Source of the DNA: Alphaproteobacteria bacterium 40-19
GTDB lineage: Bacteria; Pseudomonadota; Alphaproteobacteria; Holosporales; Holosporaceae
DNA: 64,000 bases
Reading direction: 5' to 3'
Assembly (NCBI GenBank): GCA_001898075.1
Contig: MKSD01000001.1
Span: 734,108-798,107, forward strand
In this document: piece after piece, positions 3,004 through 59,729 of the stretch
Layout: every line of letters starts with the position of its first letter
How positions within the stretch are numbered: the stretch's first letter is position 1
Notes under the pieces: generated by a model
What the model was told of the DNA's origin: nothing
Databases searched by the model: none
Seen by the model: the letters and a program-made list of their open reading frames with translations, nothing else
Program-made: the position numbers and the translations under genes

Positions 3004-3678
3004 TTAACACTCTATTTCTTGAAAATAATGAGGCTTTAAATAAACAACGGTGTCAAAAGCCTGCTTATAGACTCCAGCCAAAAGATATTTCGGGTCGGAC
3101 AAAAAACCCTGAAATTCTTTGATGGGAATCCACTTCCATTCTGCCACACTGGGATCTTTCAAGCTGCACTGATCGGTTGAAATCTCTGAAAAACTAACAT
3201 AAATATCATTAAACTGACGGTCTATATAACAGGGGTTTAAAATAGCTTGGCGTCGATAGGAAAACAAGAATTCAGGCTTTAACACGTTTGGACTTATTCC
3301 CATCTCTTCAGAAATCTCGCGCTCACAAGCGTCAAAACTGGATTCTCCAGCTTTGACATGCCCCACCACTGCAATGGACCAGAGGTCTTTCGCATGATCC
3401 ACTTGGGAACTGCGTTTTTGCATCAAAATGTGTTGCTGGCTGTTAAAAACATAACAATGAATAGCTCGGTGCCACAAACCGTGTTGATGCACCATGGCGC
3501 GGTCCTTAGATAGCCCTGTAAAAGACCCATCTTCATTTAAGACATCTAACAGTTCTTTGTTCATCACTTTTCCTTTTAACTTTTGAAGCAAGGTACTAAA
3601 TTTTTGGCAGTTAGAAAGGAAATACGATGCTTGCACGTTGACACTGATTAAACACATCAAAAAAAGGTATTTGTTCAT
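3004..3678 (-). CDS. NUDIX hydrolase, isopentenyl-diphosphate-isomerase-like, with export-type leader
   Basis: Protein of 224 residues. Residues 1-18 look like a signal peptide (MNKYLFLMCLISVNVQA, then S). The NUDIX fold begins near residue 39 (MNKELLDVLNEDGSF) and holds a full NUDIX box of the form GX5EX7REUXEEXGU around residues 130-150, including the segment REISEEMGI, so the metal- and pyrophosphate-binding residues are intact. The layout resembles the Idi/YfcD branch (HRAIHCYVFN, LMQKRSSQVDHAKDLW). Its ATG overlaps the stop of the upstream ATP-grasp gene as ATGA and is preceded by GAGG, which supports translation coupling and the leader-containing start. A second ATG at 3564 with an AAGGA site would give a leaderless enzyme. 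Substrate unknown. Confidence 0.78.
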   Translation of the reverse strand: MNKYLFLMCLISVNVQASYFLSNCQKFSTLLQKLKGKVMNKELLDVLNEDGSFTGLSKDRAMVHQHGLWHRAIHCYVFNSQQHILMQKRSSQVDHAKDLWSIAVVGHVKAGESSFDACEREISEEMGISPNVLKPEFLFSYRRQAILNPCYIDRQFNDIYVSFSEISTDQCSLKDPSVAEWKWIPIKEFQGFLSDPKYLLAGVYKQAFDTVVYLKPHYFQEIEC

Positions 3679-6572
3679 AACGTGGCCTCATTAGAATAGA
3701 TACATGCTTTATTCCCTACGGAACGGATCGTTATATTTTTTTCTTCGTAATCATGCAAAATTTCTTTTGGGATATAAATAAAATGATAAAATGCTCGATT
3801 GAATTCTATGGAAGGTAAAAAATAAGGCTCATGAGACAGAGCAAAACCCGTGTAGCTATCGATCAAAAAAACGGGTTGATGATGAGATAAGTCTTCTAGC
3901 AACTTTTGAGGCAGCCCTTCAGAAGAAAAATCATCCCTAAAAAAGAACTTAGGATCTTGTCTTAATTCCTTAAAATTGATAGGCCCTATATCCCAAACTC
4001 CCCACGAAAAAGGCGTTTCGTAAAGGGGCTGCCCCTGATTACAATGTTCTAAAGAAGAGTACGGTTTATCAGATGGACAAGGCCTAAATTGTAAAACAGT
4101 TAGCGGTTTAATGGCTCTAGACTTCCAAAATCCTTCCATATTCCAAGTTATGGCCCCAAAAGTCTGATCTAAATTTTTACAAAAATTTTGCAGCTGCTGC
4201 CCAATTTTAAAAAGATCGCTTTCTTGAAAAAAATAAGGAACGTTTTCTTGATTAAGTTTCTGAACATAAGAACGCTTTAAATTTTTCCCCTCAAAACATG
4301 TATAAAAACGACCCTGAGAAATATCAGGTTCCCATAAAGCTTCTATCTCAAAACGATGCCCGTTAAACACAGCATGAAATAAAAAACCTTCTGATTGATT
4401 TATTTTTTCTTGCAAAATAACCTTAGAACACAAAGTTGGTTTTTTCTTAAAAAGTTCTGATACTTTTTCTTTTAACTCTGGAACAGACATGTCTTTTGTA
4501 GAAAAGCGTCGCCCCCTAGAACTGTTAGAACCTCTTTGCCCTGACCCAACAAAATCTTCCCCTCTCAGACTATGCTTCACAAAAAACTCTTTATTAAGCA
4601 AAGAAGAAAAATCTAGCTCCGTTTCTAAGACGTAATACGGTGCAACCTGAACCTTTTCAGGGTCACATAACGTCTTTACAATACTTTGACCATATATCCA
4701 GTCACCTTCAGACCACAACATCTTAGAATCAAATTTTTTTGAAAAATCAAAAGGATACGAAACCATGAATGAAGCGACTTTTTGCACTCCAAAGGATTTA
4801 TAAAATTCTTCCATTTCAGATTCACAGGCCAAAGATAGTTTAGAAATACCCGATTTACTCATATCAGTCATGGCTTTTTGAACAAGCATCGTACCTATCC
4901 CCAGTTTTTGGTATTCAGGAATAACAACAAGATCAGTGAAATAAGCTGTTTTTTCCATTCCTGTAGGTCGTAGATTTTCCAAAATATTAACAGAAATGGA
5001 TCCTATCACTTTATCAGAACGAAAATGGTCACAAGCCACCCACACTTTAAGGCAAGACGGTAACTTTGCAGGCATAATACCTTGGGCCCTAGAGGTCAAA
5101 TGAACGAGAACTTTTTGAATATCTGCTATATCTGAATTTTGTCCCTGACGTATAAAAAAGCGCTCTATATCCGGAGTTAAAGCACAAAAACGGATTAAGG
5201 CTTGTGGGGAACTTAGAATCTTTTTGCAATCTGTGGTCACGCACGGTAATGCTTGATCGTACAATTCCCATAAACGCTTCAAACTTTGAAGAGGTGTGGC
5301 TGTACACGCCACAATTTGGCCTACATTCCAATGACCTGAGGTAGATGCATCAAAAGCAAAAGGACATTCATCCCACAAATCTGCCCAACTGCTGCTTGTG
5401 ATGTAATTTTCTTGGTTGGCCCATTCAATAACTTTCAATGGCTTTTCCAAGAACTGATCAGAATGAAAAGACCCATCATAGGTTGTCACGCAAAGCTGGG
5501 CCAAAGCACACTGAGCTGGGACTTCGTTTACAAACGGTTTAGCTGGTAATCCTGCAAATAATGCCAGCTGAGCCTGAACCAGGTCTACACCCCAAATTTT
5601 TTTATGCCACTGGGCGATATACATTCCTCCAGGCCGTCCGTTCAATTCAATAAGCTCTATTTGTCCATTAGGCTGAACCATGAGCTCAATATGTAACACT
5701 CCATAGATATACCCTAAACTTTGAGCCACTTTTAAGGCATAATCTAAAGCCTCTTTTTGCACATCATCTGATAAAATAGAGGGAGACAGTTGTCCTGTTT
5801 CTAATGCAAAAGGATGAAAAATAGGAAAATTATCACTTATTTTGCCATAAAGCATTTCGCCTTTTTCGCTCACAATATCTGCGTCCACTTCGTGACCTTT
5901 TAAAATTTCTTCTAAAATAAAAAATTTATCTTTGTTGGAATTTTTTAAGATCCCATCTGTGTAGTTCTCTAAAGAGGACTCATCTTGAACAAAACGGCTC
6001 CATTCAGACCGAATGCCACTGCAAGGCTTCACAAAAAAAGGATACCCAAAAGCAACAGCATTTTCTTTCAAATCTAATAAAGAACTTTTTTGGACGCGAC
6101 AAGAAGAAAGCCCTTGTTCCTTAAGAATAGACCGAGCCCTAAATTTATCTTGAGAATTTTGATAGGCTTGAACAGGATGATGCGAAAGATTTAAAAATTC
6201 CGCTAATAAAGAAGTAATTTGCAACCATTCTTCCCTGACAGTAAAAATAACATCGGGCTCTAAACCCTGTTCTTGTAAATTTTTTAATAAAGTACCCTTT
6301 GCTAGATTAACGTCATCAACAGTCTTTTCTTCAAAGAAAAGAATTTGATCGATAAGACCCTGCTTTTGGAGGTCCGGAATTAAAGGATTAGGAGGCGATT
6401 CGACTAAAACAACTCTTTGAGCATGCCCCCTCAGTTCTTTAAAAACATCAATTTTATATTCCTTACCATGAGAACTGCCCGCACCCAAAACCAACAAGGT
6501 TTTCAAATCCATACCTGCAAAAATCTCTTTCCCAGATAGCAACAGAATCATTAATAGGAATTTACGCTTCAC
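3675..6572 (-). CDS. Large ATP-grasp ligase / GNAT / PEP-synthase-like fusion with hydrophobic leader
   Basis: A 965-residue multidomain protein whose exact architecture I do not recognise. Residues 1-20 form a basic-plus-hydrophobic leader ending KEIFAG, followed by MDLKTLLVLGAGSSHG. Residues about 21-370 are an ATP-grasp carboxylate-amine ligase: FFVKPCSG, EEILKGHEVDADIV, and the metal/catalytic segment HIELMVQPNGQIELIELNGR. Residues about 500-610 are a GNAT acetyltransferase (AYFTDLVVIPEYQKLGIGTM, the acetyl-CoA loop). The C-terminal third contains VILQEKINQSEGF and, near residue 847, ITWNMEGFWKS followed by LTVLQFRP, recalling the nucleotide-binding domain of PEP synthase/PPDK. The start is GTG at 6572 without a clear Shine-Dalgarno sequence; the internal ATG at residue 21 could be used instead. 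It likely joins amino-acid-like substrates; the product is unknown. It is coupled to the NUDIX gene downstream. Confidence 0.7.
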   Translation of the reverse strand: MKRKFLLMILLLSGKEIFAGMDLKTLLVLGAGSSHGKEYKIDVFKELRGHAQRVVLVESPPNPLIPDLQKQGLIDQILFFEEKTVDDVNLAKGTLLKNLQEQGLEPDVIFTVREEWLQITSLLAEFLNLSHHPVQAYQNSQDKFRARSILKEQGLSSCRVQKSSLLDLKENAVAFGYPFFVKPCSGIRSEWSRFVQDESSLENYTDGILKNSNKDKFFILEEILKGHEVDADIVSEKGEMLYGKISDNFPIFHPFALETGQLSPSILSDDVQKEALDYALKVAQSLGYIYGVLHIELMVQPNGQIELIELNGRPGGMYIAQWHKKIWGVDLVQAQLALFAGLPAKPFVNEVPAQCALAQLCVTTYDGSFHSDQFLEKPLKVIEWANQENYITSSSWADLWDECPFAFDASTSGHWNVGQIVACTATPLQSLKRLWELYDQALPCVTTDCKKILSSPQALIRFCALTPDIERFFIRQGQNSDIADIQKVLVHLTSRAQGIMPAKLPSCLKVWVACDHFRSDKVIGSISVNILENLRPTGMEKTAYFTDLVVIPEYQKLGIGTMLVQKAMTDMSKSGISKLSLACESEMEEFYKSFGVQKVASFMVSYPFDFSKKFDSKMLWSEGDWIYGQSIVKTLCDPEKVQVAPYYVLETELDFSSLLNKEFFVKHSLRGEDFVGSGQRGSNSSRGRRFSTKDMSVPELKEKVSELFKKKPTLCSKVILQEKINQSEGFLFHAVFNGHRFEIEALWEPDISQGRFYTCFEGKNLKRSYVQKLNQENVPYFFQESDLFKIGQQLQNFCKNLDQTFGAITWNMEGFWKSRAIKPLTVLQFRPCPSDKPYSSLEHCNQGQPLYETPFSWGVWDIGPINFKELRQDPKFFFRDDFSSEGLPQKLLEDLSHHQPVFLIDSYTGFALSHEPYFLPSIEFNRAFYHFIYIPKEILHDYEEKNITIRSVGNKACIYSNEATL

Positions 6573-6739: not shown

Positions 6740-6904
6740 TTAGCAGCAATCGCAACCAACTTTTACGGTTTCCACATATTTTGTGCAAACGCCACAAGAG
6801 GTGCAGCTCACCTTTTCTTGAGTTTTGATATCATCGCCACAACAATTTGCGAAAGCAGACGCCCCACAAGCAAAAAAGCCTAACAGAAAAGCTACGATCT
6901 TCAT
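6740..6904 (-). CDS. Small exported cysteine-rich peptide (54 residues)
   Basis: Short gene starting at the ATG at 6904, preceded by a good GGAG ribosome-binding site seven bases away. Residues 1-19 are a textbook signal peptide (MKIVAFLLGFFACGASAFA). The predicted mature part is only about 35 residues and contains eight cysteines in the pattern CC-x11-C-x2-C-x2-C-x10-C-x-CC, ending directly at the stop codon. I do not recognise the family. The spacing suggests metal binding or multiple disulfides after export. It lies upstream of the repeat array and the leader-bearing ATP-grasp/NUDIX operon on the same strand, with about 170 bases between. Confidence 0.72.
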   Translation of the reverse strand: MKIVAFLLGFFACGASAFANCCGDDIKTQEKVSCTSCGVCTKYVETVKVGCDCC

Positions 6905-6987: not shown

Positions 6988-7491
6988 CTATTCATCTGAA
7001 TAAGAATTAAATTTATTGTTTTCTTCCTGACGCCATGCTTGTTCTTTATTCAGCTTTTGTCGCAGATCTCCTTTTGTAAAAGCCACCTCTACACCGCGAC
7101 TGGCCCACAACAAAGAATAGACCATCTTAGAAACCGCACTCAAAGCCTCATTAATTTCTTTGGTAAGAATAGGCTCTATATTCAAGTGATTGGCCTGGTT
7201 GTATTCCAAAAAAGTCTTTAAAACAAGTTCTTGCATACAAAAAGTATACGTCATCACATAAATCAAATTCCCGTCGGGATCCGAGGGAGATTGGGTAAGG
7301 GCTCCGATTAAAACATCTTTGCAAGAAAGATGCAGAGGTGTCTTTCCTACAAAAGGCTTTAATGGTAAAGGAGGAATCACTTCTGACATGTTTTCTTGTG
7401 AAAACACCATATCTTCAGCCATCACACAAACGGGCCATAAAATCAAAGCAGCAAAAAAACGCCAGCTAAAATGGTACAGAAAATTATACAA
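6988..7491 (-). CDS. Secreted hypothetical protein
   Basis: Protein of 167 residues, not recognised. The N-terminus has a hydrophobic stretch ending PVCVMA|ED (about residue 25), a likely signal peptide with cleavage after AxA. The rest is soluble, with a mixed helical segment (EPILTKEINEALSAVSKMVY) and a charged, Gln/Glu/Asn-rich tail (KLNKEQAWRQEENNKFN). The first in-frame start is a TTG at 7491 without a clear ribosome-binding site, and it begins only 27 bases from the 3' end of tRNA-Glu, so co-transcription with the tRNA is possible. The presence of a full leader supports this start. The Cys-rich gene follows downstream on the same strand. Confidence 0.6.
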   Translation of the reverse strand: MYNFLYHFSWRFFAALILWPVCVMAEDMVFSQENMSEVIPPLPLKPFVGKTPLHLSCKDVLIGALTQSPSDPDGNLIYVMTYTFCMQELVLKTFLEYNQANHLNIEPILTKEINEALSAVSKMVYSLLWASRGVEVAFTKGDLRQKLNKEQAWRQEENNKFNSYSDE

Positions 7492-12236: not shown

Positions 12237-12845
12237 ATGTTTAAATTTTTTTTATGTTTTGTTCTCTTGAACGTTCCTGGTTTTGCTAAGAATTGTTCAG
12301 AGCCTAACAGATGTCCAAAGTCTGGATGTCCCGTCACCTCTAAACAATCCATTCTCGAAAAAGATTCTGCAGAAGACTCAGAAGATGAAATAGAAAATGG
12401 CGTTTTGGAACAGGTGGGCAGCCTTTTAAAAAATTGGTGGGAAAAAACCAAACAACAGTCTTCTCAAACCCTAGAATCAGCCCTAGACTCCGCTTATGAT
12501 TGGGGAGAAAAAGGCCTGGGAAGATTTCAAGAGTATGTTATTCCTGTGTTTTCAGGCGGCTTTTCTGCCCTGCAGCAAACAGCGCAGGATCTTTTCCAAA
12601 GGACTCAAGAAGATTTTACTCAGAAACCAAAAAAACAAAAATCCCAGTCTATTCGTACTATCCATAAATGGTCTGAAGGAAACAACCACAACGTCAGTAT
12701 TCATCAAGAGGAAAGATCATCAGACGGTGGTCTAAAAATCATTGATGTGACAAAAAACTTTAAAGAACCAGAGATTACGATAAAGGAGTTAGACAATGAA
12801 GAGAAAGACGTTCCGGAAGCAACAAGCGAGTTGGAAGATTCTTGA
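12237..12845 (+). CDS. Secreted hypothetical protein, acidic/charged
   Basis: Protein of 202 residues starting MFKFFLCFVLLNVPGFAKN, a signal peptide with cleavage after PGFA. Four Cys residues... three lie close together just after the leader (NCSEPNRCPKSGCPVTSK), followed by an acidic stretch (EKDSAEDSEDEIENG), an amphipathic helical middle (LLKNWWEKTKQQ; ALQQTAQDLFQRTQEDF) and a Lys/Glu-rich tail ending EATSELEDS. No known family recognised. It stands between another secreted gene and tRNA-Thr. The upstream 120 bases are very AT-rich, and the start has no strong ribosome-binding site. Confidence 0.6.
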   Translation: MFKFFLCFVLLNVPGFAKNCSEPNRCPKSGCPVTSKQSILEKDSAEDSEDEIENGVLEQVGSLLKNWWEKTKQQSSQTLESALDSAYDWGEKGLGRFQEYVIPVFSGGFSALQQTAQDLFQRTQEDFTQKPKKQKSQSIRTIHKWSEGNNHNVSIHQEERSSDGGLKIIDVTKNFKEPEITIKELDNEEKDVPEATSELEDS

Positions 12846-23152: not shown

Positions 23153-23839
23153 TTAGGGATAAAATCGCGAAGACCGCCGTCTCCCCAAGGTTTCCGCCCT
23201 CCCGTCATCCTTATGCCCAGTTTTGACCTTACTCGAAGACCTGTTTGGTGAACCGGGCCCAATATACTGGCCTATCTGCTCTCCTTTTGTAGGATACCTG
23301 GGACGATGATTTTCAAAATGATAAGCCCGTCCTGCAATACTTCCGGGGTCAACGGCGTTCACATAGTAACCCGGTTGGTACAAGTTTGAAACAAAAAGAT
23401 CCCAGTCTTTTAAAGGTTTGGCCGAAGATGTTGGACTGTCCACGGACTTTTCTGTGTCTGTTTTTACGGATTTTTTTTGAGATTTATAAGCCTGCAAATT
23501 TTTAAAAAGTGTCTTGAAGCTAAAATCAACAGGTAAATTTCTTAGAATTTCTTGCAAAAATTCCTTGCGATCAGAAGACAAGTATGTGGCATTGAGTTTC
23601 TTAAACAATTTGTTATCCAAATTTTTTATCTGAAAGTAGTTCATTAAGAGTTTTTTCAACACAGGTCCAGCTTTTTTATCATCTGCCAAAAAATCAGAAA
23701 TCTTCCTAATCCAGTTCTGTTGAATTTTTAGTTTAGAATTTTTTATCCTGCGGGATCTTCTTTTTTTAGGAATAGGTTGGGCATCAACGACACAGCTGCA
23801 TGCCAGCACTATTCCTAAAACTAATTTTCTGATGCGCAC
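23153..23839 (-). CDS. Secreted basic hypothetical protein
   Basis: Protein of 228 residues from a GTG at 23839, chosen because AAGGAGGA stands five bases upstream and because a signal peptide follows directly (VRIRKLVLGIVLACSCVVDA|QP). The mature part begins very basic (KKRRSRRIKNSKLK), has a helical region (IRKISDFLADDKKAGPVLKK, FLQEILRNLPVDFSFK), and ends in a Gly/Pro/Arg-rich tail (YPTKGEQIGQYIGPGSPNR). A segment DWDLFVSNLYQPGYYVNAVD is near residue 145. No family recognised. An in-frame ATG at 23908 would add 23 residues before the leader and is unlikely. It is divergent from comF. Confidence 0.62.
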   Translation of the reverse strand: MRIRKLVLGIVLACSCVVDAQPIPKKRRSRRIKNSKLKIQQNWIRKISDFLADDKKAGPVLKKLLMNYFQIKNLDNKLFKKLNATYLSSDRKEFLQEILRNLPVDFSFKTLFKNLQAYKSQKKSVKTDTEKSVDSPTSSAKPLKDWDLFVSNLYQPGYYVNAVDPGSIAGRAYHFENHRPRYPTKGEQIGQYIGPGSPNRSSSKVKTGHKDDGRAETLGRRRSSRFYP

Positions 23840-23931
23840 GGCGTCCTCCTTTTGAAAACTATATAAGTATGTTATAAAATGATTAAACTTTTCGTTTACT
23901 TTTATCACTTTTTTTTTGGGAATTTCAAGGT

Positions 23932-25018: not shown

Positions 25019-26575
25019 TTAGAGCGTTGAGCTAGGCCCTGCTTCTGCTTCAGCCGCCTGCAAGCGTTTTGTATAGTCTTCAGACAAAGACTTTACAGCC
25101 CAAAGCCACCAAAAGGTGATTCCCACCAATATCGCTCCCAAGATGGGAACGTTAAGCTGAGGCATTGAAATGGTTTTTGTCACCAATTGAGACACAATCT
25201 GAATGACACTGCCTCCCGACTTTCCGGCACGTCCACCCAGAACGTCCACCGCCGCTTTACCTTTAACTTTTTCTTCTTCGTTCCCGACAATGAAGGCCAT
25301 TTCTTTTGTAGGATCAAACAAAGAGTATTTAGTTCCTTTACTGAGAACGTTTTGAATCAATCCTAAGATGACTGCGACTTCCAAAGCGCTGCTGCCGATG
25401 ATCTGACAAAAACCAGCTAGATGATCTTGGAAAACCATGAATGCAAAGAAGCCCGCCCCGGTAATCATAACAACCCAGGGTGTTAAACTGGCCGCAAACA
25501 ACCAACCCACTTTTAAAAGGTTTTTACTGACTAAAATCAACAGCATAGTCGCCAAACCTGTCCCAATAAAGCTCTTTCCTATAAAAGAACTATAGGCGCC
25601 AGGATCTTTTTTCCCCGTCGCAGGATCAATAAAGTACAAGCTAACACTTTCCTTCCATAATACTTCCACGATATTAATGGTGATCCCATAAGCCAATACC
25701 AGCACCATGATGTACCAAAGGTAACGAGACTTCATTAAAAATAAAGCACTGTCTTTTAGGCTCATTTTTACTTTTTCTTTTTTCGCTTTCCCAGCGCCAA
25801 ATTTTTGTTCCTCAGTCAGTACATTGCCTTTATGCATCCACCAATACATGAGTCCAATCAAGAGGCAGCCCAAAACCACACACCCTGTATAGACCTGCAC
25901 CTGAGTTGTAAAATCTTTCTCTCCGGTCGGTAAACGAACTTCTTTAAATAACTTGTCTCCAAAACCTGTCAGAACACCCGCAGCCACCAATCCTAAATTG
26001 GCATAAAAGCCGTACATAGGGTAGAATCGCTTGGCTTGTGAAGTGGGCGTAATTTGATTAGCAAACTGCCAAAACAACAAAGCCACAGCCACGTTGCCCC
26101 ACAACTCCGCCATCAGATAAAATAAACTAAACAACCAATACCCTACCGCCGGAATAGCAGGAGCTAGTTTTGGGTAAGCCAACATAGTGGCCTCAATCCA
26201 CTCCGGCGACGCATTTAAGTAGGCCCTTGCAGGGTAAAATACAAAAGCAAACAAAAGAAAAAAAGCTGCAAAAGGAAACAGCGTACTGTAATAAAGCTTT
26301 TGCCTAGAAAGCACATTGCTGAGCTTAGCATACCCAATTACCGTGAAAATTGCACACGGCGTTACAAGCCCCATCTTCACCCAAGGAAGAGTAAAACTCC
26401 CAGAATGGGGAGCGTTGACTAACAAAGAATCCTTCAAGTTCCGGACAGTGGTATAGTTAAACAACACCCAAAACATGATAACAACCATCGGCAAAAAGAT
26501 TTTAACTTCGTCCGAAAATACCGGCCACAATCGCTCTCGCCATTTACCCATCGCAGGGGTTTGTGAATTTAGCAT
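25019..26575 (-). CDS. tlc: ATP/ADP translocase (nucleotide transporter, Tlc family)
   Basis: Polytopic protein of 518 residues with about 12 membrane helices, similar in length to rickettsial Tlc (about 500). The N-terminal segment FNYTTVRNLKDSLLVNAP and SGSFTLPWVKMGLVTPCAIF correspond to the YT-x-R-x-x-KD-x-L motif and following helix of the plastid/bacterial energy-parasite translocases; GITINIVEVLWKESV in the second half is another family landmark. These carriers exchange host ATP for bacterial ADP or import other nucleotides; which one cannot be decided here. Its presence is the strongest sign of an obligately intracellular lifestyle. Single gene with its own terminator; the 235 bases upstream contain a short GAGGC/GCCTC inverted repeat. 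Confidence 0.94.
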   Translation of the reverse strand: MLNSQTPAMGKWRERLWPVFSDEVKIFLPMVVIMFWVLFNYTTVRNLKDSLLVNAPHSGSFTLPWVKMGLVTPCAIFTVIGYAKLSNVLSRQKLYYSTLFPFAAFFLLFAFVFYPARAYLNASPEWIEATMLAYPKLAPAIPAVGYWLFSLFYLMAELWGNVAVALLFWQFANQITPTSQAKRFYPMYGFYANLGLVAAGVLTGFGDKLFKEVRLPTGEKDFTTQVQVYTGCVVLGCLLIGLMYWWMHKGNVLTEEQKFGAGKAKKEKVKMSLKDSALFLMKSRYLWYIMVLVLAYGITINIVEVLWKESVSLYFIDPATGKKDPGAYSSFIGKSFIGTGLATMLLILVSKNLLKVGWLFAASLTPWVVMITGAGFFAFMVFQDHLAGFCQIIGSSALEVAVILGLIQNVLSKGTKYSLFDPTKEMAFIVGNEEEKVKGKAAVDVLGGRAGKSGGSVIQIVSQLVTKTISMPQLNVPILGAILVGITFWWLWAVKSLSEDYTKRLQAAEAEAGPSSTL

Positions 26576-27506: not shown

Positions 27507-27658
27507 TTTCTTTTAACGGTTTCTTTTTATTTTTTTAATACTGTGAATTATTATGAAAAACAAATAAAAATATTGAAATTGTGTTTTGTGTCTTTTATGA
27601 TCTGACCATGGGCTTAGAGCAAACAGTGCACTAAGCGACCGATAACTTGGAGGACGAA

Positions 27659-29266
27659 ATGAATAAATTACACACCTTATTACTGGCATTCAGTGCTATG
27701 ACATCTGCAAAAATCTGGGCCGATGGGCCAGCGTTGCAAGGGGCTGCATTGCAAGCTCCAGCACTGACCACATCCTCAGAGGCTAAAGAATCTCCATTCA
27801 AGAAACTGATAGAGCTCTTAGCAAAGGCAAAGCAGAAACAATCTTCTGCGGCCCAAGAATCCTCTGCATTACAAGGGATTGCACAGCCCAGTATCAGTTC
27901 GGCAGAAGATCTTGTCTCTCTGGTCAAATCTCAAAACCTCAGCTTTAAAGATGCCTTAGAAAAAATGGGGGTTAATGTCGCTAAACGTTTTTCTAAAAGA
28001 CTCAACGGTAAAAAAGGACAAAAATTCTTTTTAAACAGAATTAAAAAAGAAGGCCTGTCTTGGCAAGCTGCTGCCGCTTCTTTAAAGCCTGCAACCCCAG
28101 CAGACATCGCACCTGCCAACAAAACCCCCGTTGGTGATCTTTGGAGCGACTTTACAAAATATCTTCAAGACAATTTCCCCGCTGATAACGCTGGTCTTTT
28201 GATGTCTACGTTATTGAACAGCTGGCAAAGTATTATGGGAGATATTTCTAATTCAGATCTTTTAGAAGCTTTTGCGAACTGTGTCTTAAATATGGAAGAT
28301 CAGCTTTCTGGCTCTGTCTTTTCAGCTTTTAAAACAAAATACAAAAGTATTTTAGAAAACCGCGCCTTAGATAATTTGGTGAATTTCCAAAAATCCCTGT
28401 TCTTAAAAGATCCCAGTAAGACCATCGAAGAGACATCTGCTGTCATCACCAATGTCTTTAATGTGATTAAAAACAACACCGATGACCTTTCCAAAGAACT
28501 GAAAAAAACCTTAACGGGCAATTTCGAAAAAGCCTACCGATTGATTGAAAACAGTCTGTCCCGCAATTCTTTTGACAACGCGGATACCCTAAACCCAACC
28601 AATCCTTTGACAGCAGCAACCTACACAGGACTAACAACCCTGGGAACAGCTCAAGCAGGTGCCCTGCAACTGTTGCAAGAGGCCTTGGATTACAAAATGG
28701 ATCGCCAAGGATTGGGACGTTTGATTTACGGAGGTAAAACCATCGCTGCTTTGGCTGCGCATCCCACCACAAATGCTATAACAAGTGATAACAACTTCCA
28801 ATTCGCCTGCCAAAAACTGGATAATACTGGCGCTGTTGTCGTTGATCTGGATAAAAGAACGCAATATGAAACGCTGATTGACAACATTTTAACAAAAGTA
28901 CCAGCTATCTTTAGAGCAACAGACTCCGTGATAGCAGAACCTAGAAATTACGCAGTCACTGCTAACACAAAAAACCAGAGCCTTACATTACAACTTTTGG
29001 CCGCCGCCAGCTGTGATCCTATTGAAGATCACTACGAACTGACGGCCGCAGAAAAACCAGGCGCCTACTACATGCGTCAGCTGCTAAACGGAGGAGCACC
29101 TAGCGATACCTGGTTGGCACGTACAAATGCTCGAATCTACGCCCCAGAACAAGAAGGTGAAGACGGCGAAGGCAGAAGAAACCACATGGACGAAGGTCAG
29201 GAAAACAGATCTGAATCCAGAAGCGCCCGCCAAAACAATAGAAATGATATCGTCTGGGGAAACTAA
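27659..29266 (+). CDS. Large secreted hypothetical protein
   Basis: Protein of 535 residues starting at an ATG with the strong site TTGGAGGA six bases upstream. The leader MNKLHTLLLAFSAMTSAKIWA|D is a signal peptide. After an Ala/Gln-rich stretch comes a predominantly helical soluble protein, e.g. SLVKSQNLSFKDALEKMGVN, followed by a basic patch (KRFSKRLNGKKGQKFF) that resembles a small helical repeat, and a charged tail rich in Glu, Arg and Asn (EGEDGEGRRNHMDEGQENR). No enzyme motif or known domain seen. It has its own terminator. Candidate exported host-interaction protein. Confidence 0.65.
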   Translation: MNKLHTLLLAFSAMTSAKIWADGPALQGAALQAPALTTSSEAKESPFKKLIELLAKAKQKQSSAAQESSALQGIAQPSISSAEDLVSLVKSQNLSFKDALEKMGVNVAKRFSKRLNGKKGQKFFLNRIKKEGLSWQAAAASLKPATPADIAPANKTPVGDLWSDFTKYLQDNFPADNAGLLMSTLLNSWQSIMGDISNSDLLEAFANCVLNMEDQLSGSVFSAFKTKYKSILENRALDNLVNFQKSLFLKDPSKTIEETSAVITNVFNVIKNNTDDLSKELKKTLTGNFEKAYRLIENSLSRNSFDNADTLNPTNPLTAATYTGLTTLGTAQAGALQLLQEALDYKMDRQGLGRLIYGGKTIAALAAHPTTNAITSDNNFQFACQKLDNTGAVVVDLDKRTQYETLIDNILTKVPAIFRATDSVIAEPRNYAVTANTKNQSLTLQLLAAASCDPIEDHYELTAAEKPGAYYMRQLLNGGAPSDTWLARTNARIYAPEQEGEDGEGRRNHMDEGQENRSESRSARQNNRNDIVWGN

Positions 29267-42901: not shown

Positions 42902-44563
42902 TCACCGTGTCAAAACAGGACGAGGATCTTTAGTGAACTGGTGGTACAAGCGTTGATCAGCAGGAGAAACACTCTCCACACCTTTAACCAACGATAATTT
43001 CAACAAAATCACCAGTTCACTAAGGTTGGTTTCATCACTGGTCTTTTTAAACAACTCTCCTAACACAGGAATCTCTGATAGCAAAGGGATGCCTTCTGTG
43101 TGTTTACGTACTCTTTCTTCCATTAACCCCCCGGTCACAATGACTGTGTTTTCCCGGGCTACAACCACTGAATCCATTTCTCGTACTTGAACCACAGGAA
43201 TCTCGGACTGCACACTGGACACAGCCCCTCCTTCCATAGCCAACGCCACTGCGGGATCTGCCACTTTACGCACTACACGAGAAATCATAGGATGTAAGGC
43301 CAAAATAATTTCTCCGGTTTCAAAATTTACTGACGGCTGCACATATAAAATGACTCCTACAGGAACGGTTTGGACGCGACTGGAAGAGCGTCGTATCATA
43401 GAGGGTCGTGAATAATTGCCAATGATATCGTCCATTTGTATTTCAAAGAAGATCTCATTACTGGCCACTTTTAAAATAGCAGCCTGATTATTCAAAACTG
43501 TCTGACGTAAATTGGCTAAAGTACGCACAGTGCCAAAACTTTCCATGAATTTTAAAAGGCCGTTTAAGTACTGACCATTGAGCCAAAAAGAAAAATTCCC
43601 CGGCGCCAGACCTCCCAAAGAAAGACCTCCTAGAGTTTGAGGTGCATTGGAAGGAATATCTCCGGACGTATTGTCTGTCTTGTTAAACGTGTTGCCTCCA
43701 AAAGGACTGAAAAAAGTATCCCACTTAATTCCACTTTCATATCCCTGAGCCAGGTCTACTTCCACGATTTTAGCCTCTATCAAGACCTGCGTCGTAGCCA
43801 GTTTTTGAAGATGGGAAAGATAAGAAGCTAAAATCTTATGCTGTTTTTCAGTTCCCCACACAGAAAGCAGTCCCGCATAGCGGTTTAACGAGTAAGAAGG
43901 CACCTTTTTTCCTGCAACCTCTTTCTCTTTTAAAATATATTTTAAATTTTTTTCTAACTCCTCCCAGAAATCAATGGTATTGGAACTCTTTAATTGCATA
44001 TTAGCCCCATTTTCTTGGGAATTTTGTCCTGATTTACCTGAAAGCCCCTGAGCCAAAATATCTGTCTTGACAGCTGTCTGTTTGTGCGCTTGGCGGGCTC
44101 CTAACAAAAACTGTACATTGTGAACTTTCATATAGATCACATCTTGGGTGATGTGGATGGTATCGTTTTCACAATAATACCTTAAATGACAGAGCCCACA
44201 TAGAGCCTTCAAAACCACGTGTAAAGGTTGCTTTTCTGCGTGATATAGAATAGATTTTTTCGAACTTAAAGGTTGATCAAAAACAATGCTGGCCCCGGAT
44301 TGGCGGGCAATTTCAAAAAAAACATCTTGAACCGGCATCGTACCCGACAAAGACAAAGAAATTTTTTTGTGACAAACGTCTGGCAGCGCTTCTTCTGGTA
44401 AACAAGCCCCCAGAGAAGATTTTTGCTCACCCCAAGAGGGAGGAGGCGCTGGAGAACTTAAAGCAGCAAAGTCTTCTCGGGTCTTGCGAATTTTTTGATC
44501 CTGGTAAGGACTTTTGCAGGAAGAGATCAAGATCAAAACAACCCAAAGGAATGGCTTATACAT
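42902..44563 (-). CDS. Secretin lipoprotein, MshL/PilQ-like
   Basis: Protein of 553 residues with a lipoprotein signal (VVLILISSC|KS). An STN-like domain (LSLSGTMPVQDVFFEIARQS) and N-domain (LNRYAGLLSVWGTEKQHKIL) precede the secretin domain: QVLIEAKIVEVDLAQGYESG, VPVGVILYVQPSVNF, EIPVVQVREMDSVVVARENT and VTGGLMEERVRKHTEGIPLL, then LSEIPVLGELFKKT. It forms an outer-membrane ring for a type IV pilus (MSHA-like) or type II secretion system. No other pilus or secretion gene is in this window. Terminates convergently with the surA-like gene. Confidence 0.87.
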   Translation of the reverse strand: MYKPFLWVVLILISSCKSPYQDQKIRKTREDFAALSSPAPPPSWGEQKSSLGACLPEEALPDVCHKKISLSLSGTMPVQDVFFEIARQSGASIVFDQPLSSKKSILYHAEKQPLHVVLKALCGLCHLRYYCENDTIHITQDVIYMKVHNVQFLLGARQAHKQTAVKTDILAQGLSGKSGQNSQENGANMQLKSSNTIDFWEELEKNLKYILKEKEVAGKKVPSYSLNRYAGLLSVWGTEKQHKILASYLSHLQKLATTQVLIEAKIVEVDLAQGYESGIKWDTFFSPFGGNTFNKTDNTSGDIPSNAPQTLGGLSLGGLAPGNFSFWLNGQYLNGLLKFMESFGTVRTLANLRQTVLNNQAAILKVASNEIFFEIQMDDIIGNYSRPSMIRRSSSRVQTVPVGVILYVQPSVNFETGEIILALHPMISRVVRKVADPAVALAMEGGAVSSVQSEIPVVQVREMDSVVVARENTVIVTGGLMEERVRKHTEGIPLLSEIPVLGELFKKTSDETNLSELVILLKLSLVKGVESVSPADQRLYHQFTKDPRPVLTR

Positions 44564-47363: not shown

Positions 47364-47744
47364 ATGAAAAAACTTTATTTAGCTTTAATGGGTCTTTTGT
47401 TGTCTTCCGATTTCATCTCTGATGTACACGCTCGCGGCGGAAGAAACAGAGGAAGAAAACCAACTGCCGGTTCAGAAAACAAAGATCAAGATAAATCAGT
47501 TGAGCTGTTAGCAAATACTCTAAAAGAGTTTATTAACTCTAAAGAAGGAAAAGAACACTTGGTCAAATATATACAAAATTATCCAAACTCTTTATTAAAA
47601 GTGATTACTGAAGAAGCCTCCAAAACAAATGACGACAAACTAAAAGAACTTGTTCGTAATTTAGAAAAAGAAGGAGTATCTAAAGATGTTGAAGCTACTT
47701 CTCCATCAACAACACCTACCAACCCTTCTACTGCACCTGCTTAA
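47364..47744 (+). CDS. Small secreted hypothetical protein
   Basis: Protein of 126 residues. Signal peptide MKKLYLALMGLLLSSDFISD followed by VHA|RG, then a basic segment (RGGRNRGRKPT), a helical charged middle (LLANTLKEFINSKEGKEHLV; LKELVRNLEKEGVSKD), and a Ser/Thr/Pro-rich tail (SPSTTPTNPSTAPA). No family recognised. Own bidirectional terminator shared with parA. One of several exported small proteins in this window. Confidence 0.65.
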   Translation: MKKLYLALMGLLLSSDFISDVHARGGRNRGRKPTAGSENKDQDKSVELLANTLKEFINSKEGKEHLVKYIQNYPNSLLKVITEEASKTNDDKLKELVRNLEKEGVSKDVEATSPSTTPTNPSTAPA

Positions 47745-55827: not shown

Positions 55828-56114
55828 TTATCTTAATTTCTTGGTAAACCACAACACAAAATCGTCGTCCAAAGGATAGCTTTTTCCTGGAATGTTTGGC
55901 TGGTAATGATGGATATAAAGACTTCCATTGAAGGGGTTATGTGCCCCGCCAATTGGTCCCCTATAAACGCGACCCAAACCAATCGAGGCTCAGATAAATA
56001 TCCTTCAAATAGGCAGGCCGGCTTATGCCAACCGATAGAACGAAATGCTTCAGTGATGGTTGGAATATCTTCTTTGAAAAGTGGACGAATGAACACGTCC
56101 TTTGCCTTATGCAT
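55828..56114 (-). pseudogene. GNAT acetyltransferase pseudogene, core deleted and frameshifted
   Basis: N-terminal half from ATG 56114: VFIRPLFKEDIPTITEAFRS and LVWVAFIGDQLAGHI, a normal GNAT start. After this the frame continues as unrelated sequence to a stop at 55833. In another frame the family C-terminus is recognisable (LYIHHYQPNIPGK, PLDDDFVLWFTKKLR) ending at 55828. About 65 central residues, including the acetyl-CoA-binding motif, are missing, and the two parts are out of frame. Last gene of the minus-strand operon; its start overlaps the preceding GNAT by eight bases. Confidence 0.75.
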
Positions 56115-56574
56115 GGTTCAGAGTTTTCACCATATAGACCATATTCCAATCATAACCCTGGGGTTTAAGTTTAAACAATGGAAAGAAATCTAAGGATTTG
56201 TAAAAGTGATAGGTTTTTAAATAATTTTCATCCGCCTCTTGCGGCGATAAGGTTTCTACAGAAATGGTCCGAGCCCCGGCTGTTTTTGCCTGATGGAAAG
56301 CCGCTTTTACTAACTGTTTTCCGATACCTTGTCTGTGAAAATTTTTTAAAACTCCCATCCAATAAATAGAAGCATTTTCTGGATAAGGAAAATTGATCGA
56401 AAGAAGACCCACATATTCTTCACCTGCTTTTGCAGCGAAGTTAATCCCAGAGCCAACGCCCATAGCGTAATGCTCATTCACCTCAGGGAGCCCGAAATAT
56501 TCAGGTAAGTCCGCGGTTATATTACGACAGAGTTCTTGCGCAAGGCCTCGTTTCATTGTTTCAGTCTTTATCAT
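56107..56574 (-). CDS. GNAT family N-acetyltransferase
   Basis: Protein of 155 residues with an intact GNAT core: VGLLSINFPYPENASIYWMG, then VLKNFHRQGIGKQLVKAAF (acetyl-CoA loop RQGIGK), VETLSPQEADENYLKTYHFY and the terminal YDWNMVYMVKTL. Similar proteins occur in mobile or antibiotic-related clusters; substrate unknown. The ATG overlaps the preceding GrpB-GNAT stop as ATGA. Part of a minus-strand operon with zero to fifteen bases between genes. Confidence 0.82.
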   Translation of the reverse strand: MIKTETMKRGLAQELCRNITADLPEYFGLPEVNEHYAMGVGSGINFAAKAGEEYVGLLSINFPYPENASIYWMGVLKNFHRQGIGKQLVKAAFHQAKTAGARTISVETLSPQEADENYLKTYHFYKSLDFFPLFKLKPQGYDWNMVYMVKTLNHA

Positions 56575-57527
56575 AGCACTTTACCTACCGCCACATCATG
56601 GGAATCAGATTTATGATTTTCGGGATCATCAAAGGCCATGTTTGTATAGCCGTTTTTCAGATAGAATCTTAAATTGCTTTGTCTGGATTCCGCATGAATG
56701 CTTTTAATCTCTAAACGTCCTAGCCATTTTTCTATCAAGGTTAAAAATTTACTCCCAGCATTTTGATTTCGCTTATTTTCATCAATAGTAATAACGCGAA
56801 TGGCTGCTCTTTTATTGGGCCAAAATTGAATATGGGCATAATCAATCACCTCTTTTCCTTGATATAAAACCAGGTGAGAATGCTCTTCGTGGTTAAAAGT
56901 CCATGTGTAGGGATCATCTATGTCGTGGGGGCCAAAGAAATATGTATCGCGAAAAAGTTTAACTGATTGCCATTCGTAAGGGTGGGTTGCTTTTAAAAAG
57001 CGTTGTCCACCATAGGATTCTTGTGCCAAAATAGTTCGAATAAAATGATCTTTTCCCAAAGTATACCCGGTAAACAATTGACCTTCTTGTTTTTGAAAAG
57101 AAGCGGAGTCTTTCAGTAAAGCTTCTTTCAGTTTTGCATATCGGAGCAGACTTTGGGGATTAGAGCTTAAACGGTTTCTAAAAAGAAGGTTGACTTCTAT
57201 TTCTGGATGACCTTCTTCCAGAACATGCAAATTGATAGAGTTTTCAGTACGTTTTGTAAAGCCAAATTTAAAAGGAATATTCCATTCTCCCTTATAAGTA
57301 AATCCGATTTTTTCCAAAATGGGGATAGATAGATTGCCATCTTTGCCGACCGTAATCATGTCTATCTTAGGTTTAGCAGCCAGGCCTGGTACTGCAGTTG
57401 AGCCAATATGATAGACAGCACAGTAGTTATCGCCCAATGCTTGCCTAATAAGCTCTGCTTCTGCTTCAAAAATATGGGGCCAACTGGGATCATAAGCAAT
57501 GACTTCGATACGTTTTATTTTTTGCAT
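56571..57527 (-). CDS. GrpB-GNAT fusion protein
   Basis: Protein of 318 residues with two domains. Residues ~1-165 are GrpB (nucleotidyltransferase-fold family): VIAYDPSWPHIFEAEAELIR, YHIGSTAVPGLAAKPKIDMI and GFTKRTENSINLHVLEEGHP. Residues ~185-315 are a GNAT domain: YAHIQFWPNKRAAIRVITID and NAGSKFLTLIEKWL and SNLRFYLKNGYTNMAFDDP. Function of either part is unknown; GrpB proteins resemble small-molecule nucleotidyltransferases, so this may modify a small metabolite at two positions. ATG 57527 preferred over TTG 57545. Confidence 0.78.
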   Translation of the reverse strand: MQKIKRIEVIAYDPSWPHIFEAEAELIRQALGDNYCAVYHIGSTAVPGLAAKPKIDMITVGKDGNLSIPILEKIGFTYKGEWNIPFKFGFTKRTENSINLHVLEEGHPEIEVNLLFRNRLSSNPQSLLRYAKLKEALLKDSASFQKQEGQLFTGYTLGKDHFIRTILAQESYGGQRFLKATHPYEWQSVKLFRDTYFFGPHDIDDPYTWTFNHEEHSHLVLYQGKEVIDYAHIQFWPNKRAAIRVITIDENKRNQNAGSKFLTLIEKWLGRLEIKSIHAESRQSNLRFYLKNGYTNMAFDDPENHKSDSHDVAVGKVL

Positions 57528-57541
57528 GAGTTTAACTCTGA

Positions 57542-57994
57542 TCAAATATGGTCAATGAGCTCGCGAATATCAGCACATCTATTGGAGTGGTTTTGAAGAT
57601 CTGATCGCTTAAGAAGGTCAATTAAAGACGACAAATTTAATAAATGTACAGTCGTGCGCCAATCAGTGGGTAACTTGATGTTATTTTTTGCCAAACCATC
57701 TATAAATGAATTCTGGAATTCAGGAGGCATTTTATGGGCGTACCTAAATTTTTGAAGAGGATCGAAATAATCTTTTTCTGTCAAAAAAATAGTGGTGTTT
57801 AAGATGGGATTTTGGGGCGTGATGCCAATTTCTTCTTCGGCTTCCCGAATGATCGTGTCTCGTGGGGACTCGCCATTTTCGATACTTCCGGTCACGCAAT
57901 GCCAATGACCTGGCCAAAGCTTTTGGGCAGTAGATCTCCTTGGTAATAAGATTTGGTTTTCTTTTTTTAAGATCAGGTGGGGAAAAACAATCAT
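57542..57994 (-). CDS. NUDIX hydrolase with unusual C-terminus
   Basis: Protein of 150 residues. The first 70 are a complete NUDIX module: MIVFPHLILKKENQILLPRR, WHCVTGSIENGESPRDT and REAEEEIGITP. After about residue 85 the usual last strands are not recognisable; the remaining sequence (PPEFQNSFIDGLAKNN, TVHLLNLSSLIDLLKRS) is unassigned and could be a different domain or the product of an old frameshift. The ATG directly follows the stop of the frameshifted membrane gene (TAA-ATG), showing how tightly the operon is packed. Confidence 0.72.
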   Translation of the reverse strand: MIVFPHLILKKENQILLPRRSTAQKLWPGHWHCVTGSIENGESPRDTIIREAEEEIGITPQNPILNTTIFLTEKDYFDPLQKFRYAHKMPPEFQNSFIDGLAKNNIKLPTDWRTTVHLLNLSSLIDLLKRSDLQNHSNRCADIRELIDHI

Positions 57995-58952: not shown

Positions 58953-59729
58953 TTAACCTCCTTTATATTCAAAACATTCAAATGTGCCTACCGGGCGAAA
59001 ACCAAGGCGTTCATAAATACGGTACCCCGAATCGCTAGATGCCAAAAGCGTCACAAACTGGCAGTCTGCCTGTTTTGCGATATTCATTAAAAAAACCATC
59101 ATATCTGTCCCATAACCTTGCCCCCGGAGCTCTTCTTTTGTTAATAAAGTAAAAATCCCTGCTGAATTTTTTGAAACAAATAAAATACCAATGGTGATAG
59201 GTTTATCTTCTTTGTACCCCACAAAAAATTTTTCTTGTAATTGCAATAGATCATCATTTAATAATTTATAAAAATGAACGACGGAACTGTCGTAAAATTT
59301 AAGAATATTAATAAAATCTTGCAGCAAGAGGCCATTTGTGACAGGTTTTATCTGTAAATCTGTCTTTGATGGGGGTATTTTTACGATAGACAAATCACAA
59401 AGCATCGCCTGTTCCACAGCTTCAATGATAAAATGATTGTCTAGTAAGGTTTTTGTTAATTCTGGATTGTGTTGACTGGGGGGTATCCACCATGCAAATG
59501 GATGTCTAGCAAAAATTTCTTTGATTTGTTGAACAGAAGCAGAAACTTTAAAAGTTCTGGGGACTCCATAAGCGCCATAAGCAATATTAAACATACTAGA
59601 AGGCAACTTACAGTAAATGGTCGTGATACCATGGATATCTGTAACCTTGAAGCCTAATTTTTTAGGAAGAAAAACAAAGTGAGCCAGGTGATTTTCTTCT
59701 ATAATTTTTAATTTTTGCAGGATATCCAT
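58953..59729 (-). CDS. GNAT N-acetyltransferase, two-lobed
   Basis: Protein of 258 residues, intact. The N-terminal half (LAHFVFLPKKLGFKVTDIHG; AWWIPPSQHNPELTKTLLD) is a degenerate lobe; the C-terminal half is a GNAT domain with IGILFVSKNSAGIFTLLTKE, LRGQGYGTDMMVFLMNIAK and SGYRIYERLGFRPVGTFECF. Substrate unknown. It is the first gene of the minus-strand operon; its stop (TAA) directly precedes the ATG of the broken effector-binding gene. The 80 bases upstream separate it from the DUF6314 gene. Confidence 0.8.
   Translation of the reverse strand: MDILQKLKIIEENHLAHFVFLPKKLGFKVTDIHGITTIYCKLPSSMFNIAYGAYGVPRTFKVSASVQQIKEIFARHPFAWWIPPSQHNPELTKTLLDNHFIIEAVEQAMLCDLSIVKIPPSKTDLQIKPVTNGLLLQDFINILKFYDSSVVHFYKLLNDDLLQLQEKFFVGYKEDKPITIGILFVSKNSAGIFTLLTKEELRGQGYGTDMMVFLMNIAKQADCQFVTLLASSDSGYRIYERLGFRPVGTFECFEYKGG

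Follow-up and report, generated by a model that had tools for sequence, protein, structure and literature searches.

The window analysed here is a 64,000-nucleotide stretch of the single-contig genome (988,388 bases) of Alphaproteobacteria bacterium 40-19, of the Holosporales. The small genome, an ATP/ADP-translocase-like gene (which we take to be such from reading its sequence; window 25019-26575) and the sizes of sister genomes suggest that the bacterium is an obligate endosymbiont of Holosporales type. Two coupled open reading frames (ORFs) lie in the window on the minus strand, as do all of their features described below: a 965-aa ORF (3675..6572) that starts at GTG and encodes an ATP-grasp ligase of the L-amino-acid-ligase (LAL) type, a GNAT domain and an orphan C-terminal region, and a 224-aa NUDIX ORF (3004..3678), which shares 4 bases (ATGA) with the gene upstream of it. 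ORF coordinates and Pfam confirmed what the initial annotation had described here: two overlapping frames, with ATP-grasp, GNAT and NUDIX domains. The ATGA overlap, together with a Shine-Dalgarno sequence, suggests that the two genes are co-expressed. The codon use of the 965-aa ORF is normal for the window, and the ORF is thus not visibly decaying; this codon use and a GC content of 37.5%, against 40% for the window, rule out a recent foreign origin. Upstream of the operon (6740-6900, minus strand), a small Cys-rich reading, CC-rich and with a leader-like start, is visible. PADLOC gave no meaningful link to defence, the NUDIX protein matching the generic candidate model PDC-S07 only.

The first part of the 965-aa protein (residues 21-445, 5238..6512; the end at residue 445 was judged from the length of LALs) comprises pre-ATP-grasp and ATP-grasp domains of LAL type, as assigned by Pfam, PDB, AlphaFold, Foldseek and alignment. 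Pfam ATP-grasp_4 matched residues 176-316 (E 4e-10), and in the PDB the protein was closest in sequence to BL00235 and BacD (5e-12 and 5e-10, respectively). The Foldseek ranks 1-4 were taken by RizA, BL00235 and two entries of BacD, with E about 1e-15 to 1e-17. AlphaFold, run with ten aligned domain relatives, modelled the ATP-grasp core with a pLDDT mostly of 70-96 over residues 100-350; nothing in the model of the 965-aa protein was reliable past residue 390. The ATP-grasp fold carries the ATP-binding Lys/Glu and the metal-binding Glu/Asn and Arg found in L-amino acid ligases. Indeed, alignment and a residue check found K182, E221, E296, E309, N311 and R313 all kept and rightly placed, and the ligase is therefore probably active. 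LAL_C2 (PF18603) was not detected, residues 341-455 having no Pfam match; the free-standing relative L004 is also without PF18603, and this domain is thus not universal in LALs. As judged from sequence and predicted structure, the ATP-grasp half is a complete LAL-type enzyme. The proposal of the initial annotation that a peptide-like compound is made fits this assignment, as the half is closest, in both sequence and fold, to ligases that form dipeptides.

The ligase is followed by a GNAT domain (residues 470-605, 4758..5165; outer limits set by eye) with a Q-K-L-G-I-G acetyl-CoA loop and a Pfam match at residues 509-595 (E 2.6e-11). The late part of the domain and an adjoining GDWxxGQ stretch (residues 529-643, 4644..4988) matched, at 34-37% identity, a gene in a genome of the same order and another family (G008), the shared part comprising GNAT and GDW[IL][FY]GQ. 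The counterpart in G008 is decayed, with two in-frame TGA codons, and sits at a contig end. Because the remnant matches both elements, the GNAT plus the GDWxxGQ stretch is a family of this lineage that has decayed in G008. The ATP-grasp part was not found in G008; the contig end there may hide one. Beside the remnant, at L032:6014-7675, G008 encodes a 553-aa protein whose match to the F-box is marginal (E 0.001, slightly under the cut-off). Within the window, a tandem array with overlapping ends encodes a GNAT (155 aa), a GrpB-GNAT fusion (324 aa) and a NUDIX protein (150 aa; 56107-57994, minus strand), and a further GNAT lies at 58953-59729.

The remainder of the protein (residues 646-965, 3678..4637) has no detectable family: residues 628-965 gave no match in Pfam, NCBIfam or PDB, and AlphaFold of residues 620-965 alone reached a pLDDT of 33. 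The initial annotation had seen a PEP-synthase-like C-terminus here. A third domain of the PEP-synthase/PPDK ATP-grasp kind would turn the protein into a ligase-acetyltransferase-phosphotransferase. The LQFRP string does exist, and V[KR]xS..ED followed by LQxRP, a pattern written post hoc from the sequence, occurred in that order in 0 of 200,000 shuffles. However, a profile built from 27 PEP-synthase domains scored no better against residues 641-890 than against shuffled sequence (333 of 1000 shuffles equalled or exceeded its score; hhalign gave a probability of 0.1%), and the two motifs lie ~60 residues closer together than they do in PEP synthases. Pfam PPDK_N (PF01326), tried as a candidate, was rejected by both Pfam and profile comparison. 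The resemblance to PEP synthases thus did not hold up, and we consider a domain of this kind very doubtful. On the basis of sequence searches we treat the C-terminal third as an orphan region.

In the 224-aa protein, Pfam NUDIX matched residues 70-189 (E 1e-17), and a residue check found a complete Nudix box, GHVKAGESSFDACEREISEEMGI (GX5EX7REUXEEXGU; 3295..3363). The best PDB matches, IDI and YfcD, place the protein near that branch of NUDIX enzymes; it scored, however, far below equivalog cut-offs. The catalytic Cys of IDI is absent (AVVGHV, in contrast to CCGHP/FCGHP in the genomes' own IDIs), and a separate IDI-like gene, with FCGHP, is present in the same genome. Given the complete Nudix box, the missing isomerase Cys and the IDI-like gene elsewhere, we take the protein to be a hydrolase.

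We searched for full-length relatives of the 965-aa protein among viral and GTDB contigs, in phages and plasmids, in 96 relatives, and in 385 genomes of the class and 398 of the phylum; the order of the source genome is represented by only 10 genomes in the collection searched. No full-length relative and no such fusion was found in any of these collections. The relatives of the ligase were free-standing LALs (frames of 406-440 codons), carbamoyl-phosphate synthases and other ATP-grasp enzymes. A match in Verrucomicrobium (L061) was due to chance: it extended over only 34 residues, and the protein matched, predicted to be exported, is unrelated. Another match, in G300 (L034; 25%, 4 stops in frame), was not reproduced by tblastn. 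The domain combination, which had been called new, is indeed unusual: common domains are joined in an arrangement so far unique in the collections searched, with one decayed partial relative and a third part unexplained.

Both proteins begin with a short positively charged stretch followed by a hydrophobic one. In the 965-aa protein this leader, VKRKFLLMILLLSGKEIFAG (residues 1-20, 6513..6572), a possible Sec signal, is not covered by the alignment with free-standing LALs; in the NUDIX protein the leader spans residues 1-38 (3565..3678) and is followed by an internal ATG at 3564 (Met39). In a home-made test both leaders have the form of signal peptides (charged n-region, hydrophobic core and small-x-small cleavage site), a test passed by ~6% of window start codons with 40 open codons; the two leaders together are thus suggestive, not decisive. 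The 20 leader codons of the 965-aa ORF scored like the gene body. The NUDIX leader scored 1.28, against 4.5±2.9 for real gene starts and -5.7±4.3 for false frames, 5% of which reach this value, and its ATG is preceded at 7 nt by GAGG and coupled exactly to the stop of the upstream gene. From their codon use and, for NUDIX, the Shine-Dalgarno sequence and stop coupling, the leaders look translated.

Alternatively, both proteins may be cytosolic enzymes with true starts at Met21 and Met39, the leaders being untranslated upstream sequence, a serious possibility to which we give somewhat less than an even chance. The starts of free-standing LALs correspond exactly to Met21, L099 (MDKKTLLIIGAG) aligning with MDLKTLLVLGAG; relatives of the IDI/YfcD type start near Met39 (MNKELLD), and AAGGA lies 6 nt before this codon. 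The cofactors are cytosolic, and so, by its level, is the cysteine content: 2.0% and 2.5% in the 965-aa and NUDIX proteins, respectively, compared with medians of 1.9% for non-exported and 0.95% for exported proteins of the window (the latter being seven genes picked by eye). These points are countered by the start-like codon use of the leaders, by the GAGG and exact coupling of the NUDIX leader ATG, and by Met21, which has no well-placed Shine-Dalgarno sequence. Moreover, the relatives compared correspond to single domains; their starts show the leaders to be additions to these families but are not proof of non-translation. The initial annotation had held that its reading would be refuted if all homologues began at the internal Met residues. 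This is half the case: such homologues do occur, but only as these single-domain relatives; of the leaders themselves, the form and the coding-like codon use stand, while cysteine content and the relatives' starts point the other way. Internal starts would concern location only and are compatible with the ligase/acetyltransferase chemistry discussed below.

Another proposal of the initial annotation, action outside the bacterium on host nucleotides, gained no positive evidence. As exported effectors, both proteins would leave the bacterium by way of their Sec leaders, reach the cytosol of the host and, at the expense of its ATP and acetyl-CoA, attach amino acids or acetyl groups to host molecules. 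The signal-peptide form and the coding-like codons of both leaders would agree with this, as would an MshL-type secretin (window 42902-44563) and, at another site of the genome (G000:C1:816128-817240), a GspE/PilB-like ATPase next to a GspF-like protein; these make an outer-membrane route possible, without a link to these two genes. However, Sec alone ends in the periplasm, from which ATP and acetyl-CoA are absent. The genome also encodes an exported DsbA-like protein with CHGC, so that the periplasm is probably oxidising; the cysteine content of the two proteins speaks against their residing there. A eukaryote-like targeting part was not found in either protein. In favour of an effector, it has been proposed that ATP-grasp proteins of the CDC123 family in bacteria are delivered as effectors into amoeboid hosts (PMC4431377). 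On balance we regard an exported effector as unlikely, and as less likely still a Sec-exported ligase/acetyltransferase with a new C-terminal domain that, with its NUDIX partner, would modify host molecules in the host cytosol with host ATP and acetyl-CoA. Signal-peptide-like orphan proteins are encoded elsewhere in the window at 6988-7491, 12237-12845, 23153-23908, 27647-29266 and 47364-47744; the first four were scanned and gave no confident family match.

The reading we favour is that the 965-aa protein is a bifunctional biosynthetic ligase/acetyltransferase that makes an acyl-capped dipeptide-like product, with the coupled NUDIX hydrolase in the same pathway (probability about 0.42, as judged from domains and models). 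We grade the chemical function as moderately likely. The LAL-type ATP-grasp part would use ATP to turn a carboxyl group into an acyl phosphate and join it to an amine, the most likely pair being two amino acids. The GNAT domain would use acetyl-CoA to cap either the substrate or the product, giving a dipeptide with an N-acyl group or some comparable small amide. The orphan region (~320 aa) may serve in substrate binding or represent a second, highly diverged ligase, and the NUDIX hydrolase may clear or supply a phosphorylated substrate or by-product. ATP-grasp ligases in operons with GNATs have been described, with an acyl-capped peptide as the proposed product (PMC4431377), and in Ngg, N-acetylglutaminylglutamine synthetase, both steps reside in one protein (PMC8070244). 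We count against the ligase/acetyltransferase reading the lack of a full-length homologue showing the domains conserved together, the G008 remnant without a detected ATP-grasp part, the unexplained third of the protein and the NCBIfam model of Ngg, which matches the GNAT part only (E 0.013).

The same domains could instead serve detoxification or resistance, the GNAT and ligase modifying a toxic small molecule, such as an antibiotic or an amino-acid analogue, and the NUDIX protein cleaning up nucleotides. The LAL relatives include BacD, an alanine-anticapsin ligase, the window holds a second NUDIX/GrpB-GNAT/GNAT cluster, and the GNAT domain weakly matches aminoglycoside and arsenic-resistance acetyltransferases; these last matches, however, all lie far below family cut-offs and are generic for the GNAT fold. 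We think a role in resistance improbable. If the favoured biosynthetic enzyme does make a capped dipeptide-like compound, a bacterium with a genome of <1 Mb would devote a gene, out of the few it has, to a synthase dedicated to a small molecule, which may act on the host. The orphan region, for its part, might represent a ligase or binding domain of a new kind.

Among known systems, BL00235, RizA and BacD share with the 965-aa protein a complete N-terminal and ATP-grasp domain and the catalytic residues, and are its best matches in sequence and fold. In contrast to these LALs, which occur here as free-standing enzymes, the 965-aa protein adds a leader, a GNAT domain and a 320-aa orphan region, and PF18603 was not detected in it. 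NDP-forming acyl-CoA synthetase/GNAT fusions of the Pat/Pka type also join ATP-grasp to GNAT; however, CoA_binding, Succ_CoA_lig (succinyl-CoA-ligase-like) and ATP-grasp_5 are all absent among the Pfam matches of the 965-aa protein to E 1. In Ngg (TIGR03103) the GNAT comes first in the chain, the model aligning GNAT at positions 93-220 of 547, whereas the order is reversed in the 965-aa protein. The score against TIGR03103 (14.1 bits, from the GNAT part only, against a family cut-off of 569 bits) places the protein outside that family, and no asnO-type gene adjoins its ORF. Like Ngg, however, it unites a GNAT and an ATP-grasp ligase in one chain, and by analogy the two successive reactions of Ngg may illustrate a possible way of working.
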